Source: Gemmatimonadota bacterium
GTDB lineage: Bacteria > Latescibacterota > UBA2968
DNA: 64,000 nt
Direction of reading: 5' to 3'
Assembly (NCBI GenBank): GCA_009838845.1
Contig: VXRD01000115.1
Location: 1 to 64,000 of the forward strand
The translations under genes and the position numbers were made by a program. Shown piece by piece: positions 4,614 to 34,288 of this stretch (positions are counted from its first letter, which is position 1; each line of letters begins with the position of its first letter). The notes beneath the pieces were generated by a model. It saw only the letters and a list, made by a program, of their open reading frames with translations, had not been told where the DNA came from and made no database searches.

Positions 4614-4711
4614 TGGCGGGAATGTGTGGGAATCGAACCCACCAAGCGTGGGGTTAGCACGCAACAACGGGTTTGAAGCCCGCGGGGGACACCAGTTCCC
4701 CATCCACTCCC
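4614..4711 (-). tRNA. selC: tRNA-Sec (anticodon UCA)
   Basis: Read on the minus strand, this 98-base gene folds as a selenocysteine tRNA. The acceptor stem is extended (5' GGGAGUG with CAUUCCC), with discriminator G and an encoded CCA. A long D stem forms as GGGGA/UCCCC. The anticodon arm is CGGG-CUUCAAA-CCCG with UCA anticodon. A long variable arm has a GCGUG/CACGC stem, and the T arm contains GGGUUCGAUUCCC. The eighth acceptor pair looks like G-A, which is imperfect. It starts two bases after the selD stop codon, so the tRNA is co-transcribed with selD and must be processed out. Its presence shows the organism decodes UGA as Sec. selA and selB are not in the window. Confidence 0.95.
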
Positions 4712-4713
4712 AA

Positions 4714-5757
4714 TCACGCTCGTACCTCAATCTCACCGGGATGTTCTGAAACCACCTCGCCAATATCTCGAGCCATCACACCACGCTCAATTAATGCCCC
4801 AAGAAAAGCATCAGCCACATCGGGCGCAAGTGCAATTAACAGGCCACCAGAAGTCTGCGGATCAAAAAACAAACGCCTCAAAGCCTCGTCAACATCATCG
4901 GCAAATCTCACCGCATGCCCTCGCGCCGCCCGATTGCGCCGCAAACCACCGCCCTCGCGCCCCTCTGCAATCTGCAAAGCCAGATCAAAACGCGGCACAT
5001 CAGAAGCCCGAATGCAAAACCCGACGCCACTCGCCTGCGCCATCTCCAACCCGTGACCGAGCAACCCAAACCCCGTAATATCCGTACACCCATGCGCTTT
5101 ATATGCAACCATCTCCTCGGCTGCAATGCGATTCAACTGCACCATAGAATCTACGGCAATCTGCAAAGCATCTTCATCGATCTCGCCATTTTGATAGGCA
5201 TCCGACATCAAACCCGTACCCAGCGGCTTGGTCAAAATGAGACGATCGCCCTCCCGGGCACCTGCATTGGTCTTCACATCATCTGGATGCACAACCCCCG
5301 TCACAGACAACCCGAACTTGGGCTCCACATCCTCCACAGAATGTCCACCCACCAAAACCGCGCCAGACTCCGCCACCTTCTCCTGTGCCCCTCTTAAAAC
5401 CTCGGCAATCACCTCTGGGGCGACATCATCACTCGGAAACCCGCAAATATTCAGCGCAGTAATCGGGCGCCCCCCCATCGCATACACATCGCTCAGCGAA
5501 TTGGCTGCCGCAATCTGTCCATACGCATTCGGATCATCGACAATAGGCGTAAAAAAATCCACCGTCTGAATAAGCGCCACATCCTCAGAAATCCGAAACA
5601 CCCCGGCATCATCAGCCGTATTCATCCCCACCATCAAATCGGGATGCGCCACAGGCGGCAACTTTTTTAAAATCACATCCAGCACCGCTGGATCGAGTTT
5701 CGATGCTCAACCACCGCAACTGACGAGCTGCGTCAATCTTCTACCGCGATACTTCAT
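4714..5757 (-). CDS. selD: Selenide, water dikinase SelD, itself a selenoprotein (UGA at 5709-5707)
   Basis: SelD makes selenophosphate from selenide and ATP, the selenium donor for Sec-tRNA synthesis. Translation must start at the ATG at 5757 and read an in-frame TGA as Sec17: the active-site loop is S-C-G-G-U-A-S-K-L-D-P. Sec17 and Lys20 fall exactly where E. coli SelD has catalytic Cys17 and Lys20. The total length of 347 residues including Sec equals the usual family length. The ATP/metal region follows (NTADDAGVFRI, TVDFFTPIVDD, NSLSDVYAMGG, GGHSVED). A standard caller would start at GTG 5685 and lose the active site. The ATG overlaps the upstream selenoprotein stop (ATGA), and tRNA-Sec follows by two bases. 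Sec in SelD ties its synthesis to selenium supply. Confidence 0.95.
5677..5693 (-). promoter_or_regulatory. bSECIS-like hairpin of selD
   Basis: On the mRNA, 13 bases after the UGA, a perfect 7-bp stem (AUCCAGC/GCUGGAU) closes a three-base GGU loop. The loop Gs lie 21-22 bases after the UGA, inside the range known for bacterial SECIS elements that bind SelB. The fold was recognised by eye. Confidence 0.7.
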
Positions 5758-6566
5758 TTTTTCAACTCCTCATCTTCTCTCGCCATCTGTTCCTTTTGCC
5801 AGCGATAATCGACCTTGCCATCGTAAAACATCCCGGGATTCTCTATCGCCCACAACTGCTTTCGAATCAACCAATTCTTGGGATCCAGAACATACGCGCG
5901 CTTTAACTCTGCAATCGCGTCTTCCCGCTTCCCCTGTTTTAGCAACGCGATAGCGCGCTGAAATTTCGCATCGGCCTCCTGCTCATCCGCAGTCAGCGCG
6001 CGGGGTTTCGCACCCTTATCCCCATCGCGCCATGCGCCAGGAATAGCCCCTGTTGTTATCCACTCGACCAATTCTCCGCGCAGAGTTCCCTTGTCAATAT
6101 TAACACTACCAACACTGCGGACAAGCCGTCCTTCTTCATCCACAAAAATCCCAACCGGCACGAATTTGACATTATACGCTTTGCCAATCGCATTGTGCTG
6201 ATCCAGCAATGCGCGATATGTGCCACCGGCCTTTTCAACCCAGGGTTTGGCAACCTCGGCACCCTGGGCATCCTGAGCAATAACCACCACCTCAACCTGC
6301 TCACCGTACTCCTGATAAAACGCTTGCCATCCAGGCAACTGAGCGCGGCACCCTCACCAGGACGCCCACATAAAAAACGCCGTCTTCTTCCCGCGAAAAT
6401 CACTCGAAGAAATCAGTTCCCCAGTGTACAAATCCGGCAGTGTAAACACAGGCGGCGCGTGCCCAATACCCAGACCCACAGCAGTGTCATTCGGCACTTC
6501 TTCACCAAACAGGGTATGAGCCGCCCCACTCATCACCAGGACCAATACAAATACTATTTTTTTCAT
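5754..6566 (-). CDS. Thioredoxin/TlpA-like selenoprotein with TPR-like tail (UGA at 6356-6354)
   Basis: This is a predicted exported thiol-disulfide or peroxiredoxin-type redox protein of 270 residues including Sec71. It carries a signal peptide (MKKIVFVLVLVMSGAAHTLFG), an AhpC/TlpA-like N-terminus (GHAPPVFTLPDLYTG, SDFRGKKTAFFMWASW) and then W-U-G-C-R-A-Q-L-P across the in-frame TGA. The usual TlpA motif is W-C-x-x-C-R-x-E-L-P, so Sec replaces the first Cys and the motif is one residue shorter (UxC). The fold continues with VVVIAQD and the cis-Pro region KFVPVGIFVD, then a helical TPR-like stretch (KFQRAIALLKQGKREDAIAEL) and a charged C-terminus. A normal annotation would give two fragments (6354-6566 and 5754-6338). 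Its stop overlaps the selD start by four bases. Confidence 0.88.
6324..6338 (-). promoter_or_regulatory. bSECIS-like hairpin of the thioredoxin-like selenoprotein
   Basis: Fifteen bases after the UGA, a 5-bp stem (UUGCC/GGCAA) closes the loop UGGAU. The GG of the loop is 22-23 bases downstream of the UGA, nearly the same spacing as in selD. Recognised by eye; the stem is short. Confidence 0.6.
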
Positions 6567-31076: not shown

Positions 31077-32186
31077 TTACAACCTATCCACCTGCATCTC
31101 TCCGCGCTTCAGCTCTTCCATAAGCTCATCGTATTGACCCCGATCAACCGGCATAGCGACCTCCTCTTTTCGCAGAGCCGAAAGCACAATCGCGTTAATC
31201 AGCTCCAGTGTTCGCCGCGCCGTCACACCATCCGTAATCGCCTCCCCCCCATCCAGAATCGCCGAAACAAAACTCTCCACCAGTGTTGGTCCCCCCTCAT
31301 CGGACGGCACATCCTCCCAGCTAATGTTTGGCTGATGCCCCTTTGCCCCCTTTATAAACGCCCGCATAGGCGCCTCGTACCGCCCCAGCCGAAACACATC
31401 TGGCACCTTTGAATTGGCATTCTTCTCATCCCGAAACTCAATCGTACCCAGATCCCCTGAAATCTGCCTGTAATTCAACCGCCTATCGCACGTACTCAAC
31501 TGCACATTCGCATGGGCACCACAGGCAAAACGGATATTGGCAACAACCGTATCCTCAATCTCCACACTGTGTCCCCAATTGCACATCATCGCAGAAACCG
31601 CAACCGGATCACCCACCATCCAGCACAGCAAATCCAGATCGTGGCTGGTCTGATTCATCAGCACCCCACCCCCTGCGTGCTCCCAGGTACACCGCCATAC
31701 ATCCCGGTCGTAATACACCTCTGGCCGCGTCTCAATCCACATCCACAGCACCCGGTAAATCTCTCCCAATGCCCCCTCATCAATCAGCCGCTTCAGCGCG
31801 CGATTGCCGGGAAACGTGCGATAATTGTGCCCCACAGCCAGCTTCAAATCCCGCGCCTGTGCCGCCTCGATCATCCTATCCGCTTCGGAAACCGTATTCG
31901 CAATGGGCTTCTCCACAAAAGTATGCAACCCCGCCTCCAAACAATCCAACCCCATCGGCGCGTGAAGATGGTGCGGCGTAGCAATCACCACCGCATCCAG
32001 ATCCTCGGCCTCGATCATCTCCCGGTAATCGCCCCAGGCGCGCGCACCCCGTTCTTCTCCAACCTGCCGCGCATAATCCAGATCCAAATCCGCCACCGCC
32101 ACCAACTCTGCCCGATCCAGCCCTGAAATCTCCCGCACATGCTGCCCGCCCATACCCTTCAAACCGACCACACCGAACCTGACCAT
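31077..32186 (-). CDS. Gfo/Idh/MocA-family NAD(P)-dependent oxidoreductase
   Basis: This 369-residue oxidoreductase has an N-terminal Rossmann fold (MVRFGVVGLKGMGGQHVREI, VAVADLDLDYARQV), the family motif FVEKPIANTVSEAD with the catalytic Lys in EKP, and the C-terminal domain with MNQTSHDLDLLCWMVGD that contains the catalytic His. Such enzymes oxidise hydroxyls of inositols, sugars or sugar acids. AAGGAG lies before the ATG. It forms an operon with the isomerase downstream, and it is divergent from the deiodinase-like selenoprotein gene with 81 bases between them. Confidence 0.9.
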   Translation of the reverse strand: MVRFGVVGLKGMGGQHVREISGLDRAELVAVADLDLDYARQVGEERGARAWGDYREMIEAEDLDAVVIATPHHLHAPMGLDCLEAGLHTFVEKPIANTVSEADRMIEAAQARDLKLAVGHNYRTFPGNRALKRLIDEGALGEIYRVLWMWIETRPEVYYDRDVWRCTWEHAGGGVLMNQTSHDLDLLCWMVGDPVAVSAMMCNWGHSVEIEDTVVANIRFACGAHANVQLSTCDRRLNYRQISGDLGTIEFRDEKNANSKVPDVFRLGRYEAPMRAFIKGAKGHQPNISWEDVPSDEGGPTLVESFVSAILDGGEAITDGVTARRTLELINAIVLSALRKEEVAMPVDRGQYDELMEELKRGEMQVDRL

Positions 32187-32212: not shown

Positions 32213-32241
32213 TTGACAAACGACGTATCAATCCATAATAT
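32213..32241 (+). promoter_or_regulatory. Sigma-70-type promoter of the deiodinase-like selenoprotein gene
   Basis: A perfect -35 TTGACA (32213-32218), a 17-base spacer and -10 TAATAT (32236-32241) are seen. Transcription would start near 32248, giving a leader of about 20 bases with GGAGG before the start codon. So the gene has its own promoter. Confidence 0.6.
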
Positions 32242-32267
32242 ATTCAAAAAACCCCGGAGGACTTCCC

Positions 32268-32831
32268 ATGTCCAAGACCTTCCAAAATCGCGCCGAAGCC
32301 TTTGCCTGGCTCAGCCAAAATGACCCCCGTGCGCCCAAAGCCGGAGATCCCGCGCCAGACTTTGAACTATCGGACATCAACGGCGAAAATCCCGTGCGCC
32401 TCTCGCACCTTTGCAAAGACAAACCCGTTGCACTCATCTTCGGCAGCTTCACCTGACCGCCCTTTGTCCGCGAGGCAGTTAGCCTCCGCAACCTCTATGC
32501 AACATATCACAAACAGATCCACTTTCTCGTAATCTACATCCGCGAAGCCCACCCAGAAGACGGCTGGAAACTCAAAGACACGGGCATCTACGACCCAAAA
32601 ACCCTTGCAGAACGCCGAAAAGTTGCAAAAACATGCGAAGATGCCATGCAATACGGCATACGCACCTATGTTGACGACATGGACGACGCCGTCATGATCG
32701 ACTATGTCGCCTGGCCCGAACGCCTCTACCTGATCGGCACGGACAACCGCATCGCCTACGCCGGCAAACACGGTCCCTATGGATTCAGCCCCAAAGAACT
32801 CAAAGCGGCAATAGATCACATCACCCGTTGA
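32268..32831 (+). CDS. Iodothyronine-deiodinase-like selenoprotein (UGA at 32454-32456 = Sec63)
   Basis: A 187-residue protein is obtained only when the in-frame TGA is read as Sec. The active-site region VALIFGSFT-U-PPFVREAVSL matches the deiodinase hallmark (GSxTUPPF). Downstream, HFLVIYIREAHPEDGW aligns with the conserved Glu/His region of deiodinases and of AhpC-like folds, and WPERLYLIGTDNRIAYAGKHGPYGFSP is the conserved C-terminal block. There is no membrane anchor, unlike animal enzymes. In animals these enzymes remove iodine from thyroid hormones; bacterial relatives are poorly characterised and may be reductive dehalogenases or thiol-type redox proteins. GGAGG precedes the ATG at 32268. 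The 3' end overlaps the convergent rhaB gene by 16 bases. No sign of a frameshift or decay. Confidence 0.93.
32472..32486 (+). promoter_or_regulatory. bSECIS-like hairpin of the deiodinase-like gene
   Basis: Beginning 16 bases after the UGA, GAGGC and GCCUC pair around the loop AGUUA; GCG/CGC can extend the stem across one bulged C. The loop G is 22 bases from the UGA, matching selD and the thioredoxin-like gene. By eye only. Confidence 0.6.
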
Positions 32832-34288
32832 AATTTCTCAAACGCCTCCTCCCAGGCATCCGCATCCGTCGGGCTATACGTCTTAATCGCGGTAGAAGCG
32901 CGCACAACATCCCGGAGTTCATCCAGAGAACCAATCTGCCCCTTGCCCATCGCCTGCATCAAAAGATTGCCCATTGCAGTCGCCTCAGCCGGACCTGACA
33001 GCACCGCGCGCCCCGTCGCAGAAGCGATAAACTGGCACAAAAGCGTATTGTGTATGCCCCCGCCCACAATGTGAATATCCCCCAGCGTCTTGCCCAATAC
33101 ATCTTCGAGCTGACCCAGAACATAGCGACATTTGAGCGCCAGGCTCTCCAGCGCCGTGCGAATAATATCCCCTTCACTATCGGGTAGCAATTGACCGGTG
33201 CGCTTGCAAAAATCCCGAATGCGAGACGGCATATCCCCTGGCGTACCAAAATCGGCGTGATCCGGATCGATAAACGACGCGAGCCGATCCGACGCCATCG
33301 CCAGCCCCATCAACTCTTCCCACGAATAATCCTTCCCCGCCAAAGCCCACACGCGGCGGCACTCCTGCACAATCCACAGCCCCGAAATATTCTTCAAAAA
33401 CCGAATCGTATGATCAACACCGCCTTCATTGGTAAAATTGTGCGCGAGCGCACGCTTATTAATCGCGGGTGCGGGCAATTCCGCCCCCATCAACGCCCAG
33501 GTGCCACAACTGATATAAACCGCATCGGGCGAAGAAAGAGGCACAGCCGCAACCGCCGACCCCGTATCGTGACAAGCCGGTGCAATCACATCAATCGGTG
33601 TAACACCCATCTCATCCGCAATGCTCCTGCGCATGGGACCGAGCACCGTACCCGGAGACACCACATCCGGAAGCATATCCGTGGGAATATTGAGCGCATT
33701 GAGCATTGATTTTGCCCAGGCATTCTCGCGCGGATTGAAGAACTGCGTGGTCGTCGCATTGGAATACTCACACACCTTTATACCCGTGAACCAGAAATTG
33801 AACAAATCGGGCATCGTGAGAAACGTACGCGCGATATCGAGCTGGGGCGATTGCGAGAGACGCTGCGCGAGCAACTGATACAGCGTGTTGAGCTCCATAA
33901 ACTGAATACCCGTCTGCTCAAAAATCTCCTCGCGAGAAACGCGCTCAAACGCGACATCCATCATCCCCTGCGTGCGCGCATCGCGGTAACAAAAGGGATT
34001 GCCGAGCAAATTGTCCTGCGCATCGAGCAAGCCATAATCGACCCCCCACGTATCACAGCCCATGCCATTGAGCGGTTCCCCAGACCGAACAGCGAGACGC
34101 AACCCCGTACACATCTCGTCAAACAGCCGCAGCGCATCCCAATAATAATGATCGCCGATGGGTATCCCCTGATTGGGAAAACGGTGAATCTCTTCAATAT
34201 CGAGACGCGCGCCATCAAAACGCCCCAAAACAGCCCGACCACTGGACGCACCCAAATCATAAGCGAGATAATTGGTCGTCGATGCCAT
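32816..34288 (-). CDS. rhaB: Rhamnulokinase (FGGY-family carbohydrate kinase)
   Basis: This 490-residue kinase phosphorylates L-rhamnulose (or a related ketose) in 6-deoxyhexose breakdown. The N-terminal phosphate-binding motif is YLAYDLGASSGRAVLGRF; the RhaB-type GCDTWGVDYGLLD holds the catalytic Asp. The second domain has ACHDTGSAVAAVPL and the adenine region IHIVGGGIHNTLLCQ. Length fits RhaB. GGAG precedes the ATG. Converges with the selenoprotein gene. L-Rhamnose is a component of ulvan and of many bacterial surface glycans, so the gene agrees with the surrounding sulfatase/glycosidase content, though no rhamnose isomerase or aldolase is nearby. Confidence 0.85.
   Translation of the reverse strand: MASTTNYLAYDLGASSGRAVLGRFDGARLDIEEIHRFPNQGIPIGDHYYWDALRLFDEMCTGLRLAVRSGEPLNGMGCDTWGVDYGLLDAQDNLLGNPFCYRDARTQGMMDVAFERVSREEIFEQTGIQFMELNTLYQLLAQRLSQSPQLDIARTFLTMPDLFNFWFTGIKVCEYSNATTTQFFNPRENAWAKSMLNALNIPTDMLPDVVSPGTVLGPMRRSIADEMGVTPIDVIAPACHDTGSAVAAVPLSSPDAVYISCGTWALMGAELPAPAINKRALAHNFTNEGGVDHTIRFLKNISGLWIVQECRRVWALAGKDYSWEELMGLAMASDRLASFIDPDHADFGTPGDMPSRIRDFCKRTGQLLPDSEGDIIRTALESLALKCRYVLGQLEDVLGKTLGDIHIVGGGIHNTLLCQFIASATGRAVLSGPAEATAMGNLLMQAMGKGQIGSLDELRDVVRASTAIKTYSPTDADAWEEAFEKFQRVM

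Follow-up and report, generated by a model that had tools for sequence, protein, structure and literature searches.

The gene at 32268–32831 (+ strand) of the window, as we call the whole 64,000-nucleotide stretch of an uncultured Latescibacterota bacterium that was analyzed, is predicted to encode a selenoprotein of the deiodinase family, a reading to which we assign a probability of about 0.97. The original prediction, that a deiodinase-family selenoprotein is concealed here by an in-frame UGA, was borne out by a match to the Pfam T4_deiodinase family, by 11 orthologues that keep the UGA and by selenocysteine (Sec) machinery in the genome. Which reactions bacterial deiodinase-like selenoproteins carry out has been a question since 2005. 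The protein encoded here is small and soluble, consists of one domain with Sec and belongs to the same clade as the animal enzymes; it comes with a specific prediction, a selenenyl sulfide between Sec63 and Cys123. If such proteins remove halogens, they would reveal the origin of thyroid hormone deiodination; if they are peroxidases, they would reveal its precursor activity.

An in-frame UGA decoded as selenocysteine

The frame opens with an ATG at 32268, meets an in-frame UGA at 32454–32456 (+) within the motif GSFT-U-PPF, continues for 124 codons and closes at a terminal UGA at 32829–32831, giving 187 residues with Sec63 at the catalytic position. A σ70-like promoter, TTGACA-17-TAATAT (32213–32241, +), lies upstream and matches the consensus at 10 of 12 positions. 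Two promoter-like sites were found against 0.3 expected from shuffles of the region, and the −35 box and its flanking bases are conserved in those members of the genus that have this site. A ribosome-binding site, GGAGG (32256–32260, +), was read from the sequence 7 nt 5′ of the ATG. The 187-residue frame, its UGA and the motif are as proposed originally, and so is the presence of a promoter and a ribosome-binding site.

A single in-frame TGA is found at the identical place in 11 orthologues with 59–97% identity, which come from four genera and independent assemblies. Eight are from genomes of the same genus, two represent different genera within that family, at 73 and 65% identity, and one comes from another family of the class (59%). 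Values of dN/dS against two orthologues were ∼0.15–0.16 on the 5′ side of the UGA and 0.12–0.13 on the 3′ side, and such equal purifying selection on both sides argues against a pseudogene or a genuine stop. In close relatives that lack the UGA, cysteine is aligned at position 63 in 11 of 11 cases.

Folding and orthologue comparison identified a bSECIS-type hairpin, GAGGC-AGUUA-GCCUC (32472–32486, +), that begins 15 nt past the UGA and has its loop 20 nt past it, with a G at loop position 2. The orthologue hairpins have GGUCA or CGUGA loops, and in one of them (L038) the basal pair is altered on both sides (CAGGC/GCCUG). The bacterial SECIS model calls for a hairpin 16–37 nt past the UGA with a G within the first two loop places, and the window hairpin, with its AGUUA loop, fits it (PMC13188914). 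Taken alone, the window hairpin is no more than suggestive (p = 0.07 against synonymous shuffles), and the folding of the 57-nt stretch after the UGA of this gene is not significant (z of −0.9). A qualifying hairpin below −3 kcal/mol was present in 43 of 44 family genes, and p ≤ 0.05 was reached in 20 of the 44, a set that includes near-identical genes, with ∼2 expected; it is only as this 44-gene set that the hairpin evidence is convincing.

The genome contains the decoding components. The tRNA-Sec gene selC, with anticodon UCA (4614–4711, −; ARAGORN and Rfam agree on about these ends), and selD (4714–5757, −) are within the window, and SelA and SelB are encoded side by side on a different contig. 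Translation of selD reveals its own in-frame UGA (codon 5707–5709), read as Sec within an SCGGUAS motif. Among 42 genomes compared, 32 have a UGA form of the deiodinase-like gene, and 31 of these encode SelB, versus 4 of the 10 that have non-UGA forms only (Fisher p = 0.00025, with shared ancestry ignored). The sole UGA-form genome without SelB (G007) is a 430-contig draft, and genomes with the Cys form mostly lack SelB. Because the UGA is conserved, a hairpin lies downstream and the Sec machinery is complete, this comparative evidence establishes the codon at 32454–32456 as that of Sec63.

Two other readings of the codon were weighed. Standard gene callers would end the open reading frame at 32456, as expected of a pseudogene, a sequencing error or a translation stop, but such an explanation is refuted by the retention of the UGA across genera and assemblies, by dN/dS that is equally low downstream and by the presence of tRNA-Sec, SelA, SelB and SelD, and we consider it extremely improbable. 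A code change in which UGA specifies Trp or another residue would leave the frame equally open; against it, the gene's own terminator is UGA, the tRNA with the UCA anticodon is tRNA-Sec, SelB is present, and Cys is the aligned residue in all 11 close relatives without the UGA, which makes this explanation just as remote. Neither of the outcomes that had been named as refuting the original prediction, the lack of a deiodinase match or a frameshift or sense codon at 32454–32456, was found.

A second UGA-hidden gene, encoding a Sec-redoxin with the motif WASW-U-GCR (Sec71), lies at 5754–6566 (−), immediately upstream of selD and selC. Its product has a signal-like N terminus, an AhpC-TSA/Redoxin domain (2e-15) and TPR; there is a hairpin 20 nt past the UGA, and 13 further genomes from the family (61–94% identity) also carry this in-frame TGA. 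The Sec-redoxin gene, the Sec-containing selD and tRNA-Sec form a compact selenium cluster (4614–6566, −), with selA-selB on another contig.

Deiodinase fold, active site and second cysteine

We searched the joined protein against Pfam and obtained a match to T4_deiodinase (PF00837) with E = 3.3e-31 and 108.8 bits, compared with a cut-off of 27. It spans residues 23–183 and thus both sides of the UGA, in line with the original claim that the GSFT-U-PPF deiodinase hallmark is flanked by family-like sequence in both directions. A sequence search of the PDB retrieved mouse DIO3 (4tr3, 1.3e-22) and DIO2 (9h48, 1.6e-15), and weaker matches were to AhpC-TSA, Redoxin and ResA. An AlphaFold2 model built on a 14-sequence alignment had a mean pLDDT of 81.6, with residues 96–106 of loop D modeled at pLDDT below 50. 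When the PDB was searched with this model, DIO3 (4tr3) was again the top match (2e-12, 32% identity), followed by DIO2 (9h48) and then by ResA-type thioredoxin-like proteins. The N terminus, read directly as MSKTFQNRAEAFAWL, does not have the membrane anchor of deiodinases, and no hydrophobic segment ahead of the domain, signal peptide or membrane anchor was seen in the 187-residue protein.

The NCBIfam model NF038285 (deiodinase_rel, "deiodinase family protein") also matched, at 2.8e-52 over the C-terminal half. Membership was rejected, as the 178.3 bits fall below the 250-bit cut-off and only half of the model is covered; 0 of 9 relatives tested exceed this cut-off. The same model matches a secreted EF-hand-type paralogue (L039) and proteins of another phylum, whereas the window protein lacks the long N-terminal half and is a bare domain without a signal peptide.

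The catalytic set of the window protein comprises Ser60, Thr62, Sec63, Pro-Pro-Phe, Tyr90, Glu93 and His95, so that both the Ser/Thr pair and the Tyr/Glu/His network of deiodinases are in place. Glu93-Ala-His95 (32544–32552, +), in the loop-D motif YIREAHPEDGW, is equivalent to E200/H202 of DIO3. Across 125 sequences of the bacterial clade, Ser60 is kept in 118, Thr62 in 124, Sec or Cys at position 63 in 125, Tyr90 in 125, Glu93 in 124 and His95 in 125. Proton-relay residues have been assigned in DIO2 and DIO3, and the residues conserved in the clade correspond to this relay minus its second histidine, DIO3 H219 (PMC11592359). The equivalent of that residue (H174 in DIO1) is proline in 118 of the 125 sequences and Pro110 in the window protein. 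On this alignment we recognize a core bacterial clade of 125 sequences that combines the Ser/Thr/Sec/Tyr/Glu/His set with proline in place of the second animal histidine, which is new here.

Other positions also differ from the animal enzymes. The position of DIO3 Arg275 holds varied residues in the clade and His168 in the window protein. The proximal cysteine (DIO1 C124/DIO3 C168) is replaced by Phe61, and 114 of the 125 sequences have an aromatic residue there (Tyr, Phe or Trp); the distal cysteine (DIO3 C239) is replaced by Ile131. Because the equivalents of H219, Arg275, C168 and C239 are absent, thyroid hormone-type binding by the window protein is not expected. Its common ground with DIO1–3 consists of the motifs GSxTUPPF, YIxEAHPxDGW, ER(L/V) and GxxGPxx(Y/F); in contrast to them, it is without the membrane anchor, His219, Arg275 and Cys168/Cys239 and has Cys123 instead, and in a pairwise alignment its loop D is two residues shorter than that of DIO3. 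ResA/TlpA proteins and peroxiredoxins likewise have a thioredoxin fold, but the window protein has neither CxxC nor PxxxTxxC and has the additional loop-D motif. Taken together, the alignments and the model establish the predicted fold and catalytic set as of the deiodinase type.

The second cysteine, Cys123 (32634–32636, +), lies on the helix after loop D, 60 residues past Sec63. In the clade alignment a cysteine occurs at 122–124 in 117 of the 125 sequences, whereas DIO2 and DIO3 have leucine there. The animal-type proximal cysteine occurs in two bacterial sequences (L152 and L230), both of which are without Cys123 (p = 0.004, with kinship ignored), and 7 of the 8 sequences without Cys123 have another cysteine in the domain, compared with 25 of its 117 carriers (p = 0.0003, with kinship ignored). 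In DIO1 and DIO3 the proximal cysteine is the resolving residue and forms a selenenyl sulfide (PMC9141512). The simplest reading of this pattern would be one resolving cysteine per enzyme, the location of which can move. We infer that Cys123, nearly invariant in the clade and missing from animals, behaves like such a relocatable resolving cysteine, a feature we believe to be new, and Sec63 and Cys123 probably constitute the catalytic pair.

Distribution and relation to animal deiodinases

Deiodinase-like bacterial proteins with Sec and with Cys were first described in 2005 from the Sargasso Sea (PMC1088965), and deiodinase-like selenoproteins were listed in 2026 with the motif UxxC (PMC13188914). 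The window protein has in common with these PF00837 selenoproteins the deiodinase fold, a catalytic Sec, a bacterial SECIS and Cys homologues. It differs from the UxxC description, as does the 125-sequence clade, in having UxxF (UPPF; Phe66 in 123 of 125, with no CxxC), with the second cysteine at position 123. UxxC is a published description of examples and not a curated definition, so the difference limits the sub-group and not family membership. The kind of protein has therefore been known since 2005, and the residue pattern of the clade, Cys123 and the nesting of the animal enzymes are what is new; our literature search found no paper that pairs "deiodinase" with "Latescibacter".

A single-sequence contig scan, which retrieved near relatives only, named assemblies of Candidatus Latescibacterota, one of them labeled Gemmatimonadota. 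PF00837 scored above its cut-off in 13 of 64 Latescibacterota genomes (a fifth). The family occurs in 101 of 392 genomes (26%) of a second phylum, that of carrier genome G336; among 127 sequences read from it, 116 have UGA and 11 have Cys at the catalytic place. The neighboring genes in G336 showed no hallmark of any phylum, and Planctomycetota would be a guess. In a sample of 322 genomes outside Latescibacterota there were at most 14 carriers, some of them degenerate or ResA-like. No relative was found in the viral contigs and phages searched, and the plasmids searched yielded one distant relative (25% identity). The bacterial family is patchy yet not rare. The earlier view of these proteins as rare in bacteria is contradicted by the counts in the two phyla, although the UGA conceals the genes from gene callers.

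We constructed a maximum-likelihood tree of 63 sequences, in which human DIO1 served only as an additional tip and the DIO2 and DIO3 sequences were those retrieved by the PDB search. In this tree the window gene groups with its orthologues (100/98), and the group falls in turn within a larger clade (99/92) of Latescibacterota, G336-phylum and animal sequences that excludes other bacterial deiodinase-like proteins. The branch of the animal deiodinases, which nest within the larger clade, is long, at 1.8 changes per column, and their closest sister, L043 (90/80), is unsure. Motifs of the ER(L/I/V) and GxxGPxx(F/Y) types are common to the clade and the animal enzymes and lacking in the bacterial proteins outside. 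Animal deiodinases thus seem to descend from the core bacterial clade.

The family includes longer forms. Deiodinase-like selenoproteins in which a signal-like N terminus and EF-hand-type calcium motifs precede the Sec domain were seen in L039 (genome G013) and, in the other phylum, in L146–L172; L039 represents a second deiodinase-like form within the genus of the window organism. In L054 (genome G002) the Sec domain (FGCLTUPPF) is followed by a long C-terminal part that ends in EF-hand-like repeats, in a 468-residue frame.

Possible chemistry and genomic setting

From these residues we propose, at about even odds, a soluble thioredoxin-fold Sec reductase with deiodinase-type chemistry that is resolved by Cys123. 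The Sec63 selenolate would attack a small substrate at a soft electrophilic atom, most likely the halogen of an iodo- or bromo-aromatic, and this atom would leave as X+, with the Glu93/His95 network helping to supply a proton. Cys123 would then react with the oxidized selenium (Se-X or Se-OH) to form an internal selenenyl sulfide, to be reduced by a thioredoxin-like protein or a small thiol. In animal DIO1 and DIO3 the resolving cysteine is instead the one located two residues N-terminal to Sec. That a halogen is the natural target is a tentative suggestion, somewhat short of even odds. Bromo- and iodo-tyrosines are abundant in sponges and algae, and the label RHO2 on one named relative may denote a sponge (Rhopaloeides) sample. 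Halogenated aromatics would thus be plausible substrates, although this chemistry is not evidence for them. Sponge Latescibacterota are known, from a report with no mention of selenium or halogens (PMC12993501).

We give halogen removal and peroxide reduction about equal weight. As a Sec peroxidase or redoxin, the protein would use Sec63 to reduce hydroperoxides (or sulfenic acids or disulfides), with Cys123 resolving and thioredoxin recycling, and deiodination would be an animal invention; this too falls a little below an even chance. It would agree with the weaker AhpC-TSA, Redoxin and ResA matches and with the layout of Sec and one distant resolving cysteine, which resembles that of atypical 2-Cys peroxidases. 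A redox role has been proposed (PMC1088965), and the distant relative on a Mycolicibacterium plasmid is flanked by genes for a carboxymuconolactone decarboxylase-family protein and a glutaredoxin. However, the peroxiredoxin PxxxTxxC motif is missing, as is CxxC, and the invariance of the EAH loop and Tyr90 is best explained by retention of deiodinase-type chemistry. The fullest form of the dehalogenation proposal, in which the Sec63/Cys123 proteins of Latescibacterota and the second phylum are reductive dehalogenases with an internal selenenyl sulfide, and animals acquired one, moved the cysteine beside Sec and gained the second histidine, seems to us rather unlikely as a whole.

Reductive dehalogenation of algal phenols, as suggested originally, would be one candidate activity; the neighborhood contains no gene that points to a halogenated substrate. 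The selenoprotein gene lies between a Gfo/Idh/MocA oxidoreductase gene (31077–32186, −) and a convergent FGGY sugar kinase gene (32816–34288, −), with sulfatase genes 5–12 kb away, a setting that would suit a joint role with these proteins in sulfated sugar catabolism. It is, however, on the strand opposite to both neighbors, with its own promoter and ribosome-binding site, and comparison across genomes largely refutes such a role. In G013 the Gfo/Idh and FGGY genes are next to each other, 16 bp apart, and the deiodinase gene is missing there; in G006 the deiodinase gene lies at the opposite end of the kinase gene, and in G001, G002 and G059 its neighbors differ; they are unrelated in more distant genomes. 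We regard a part in sugar catabolism as very unlikely and the oxidoreductase gene as a neighbor with no functional link. Since sister genomes lack or relocate the gene around the same sugar genes, the sugar-sulfatase island cited in the original prediction is misleading as a setting and gives no clue to the substrate, and inference of function from neighbors was rejected after this comparison. Judged by gene order, the selenoprotein gene is an independent, moveable unit inserted amid sugar genes. At their 3′ ends, it and the gene for the FGGY kinase share 16 bp (32816–32831).
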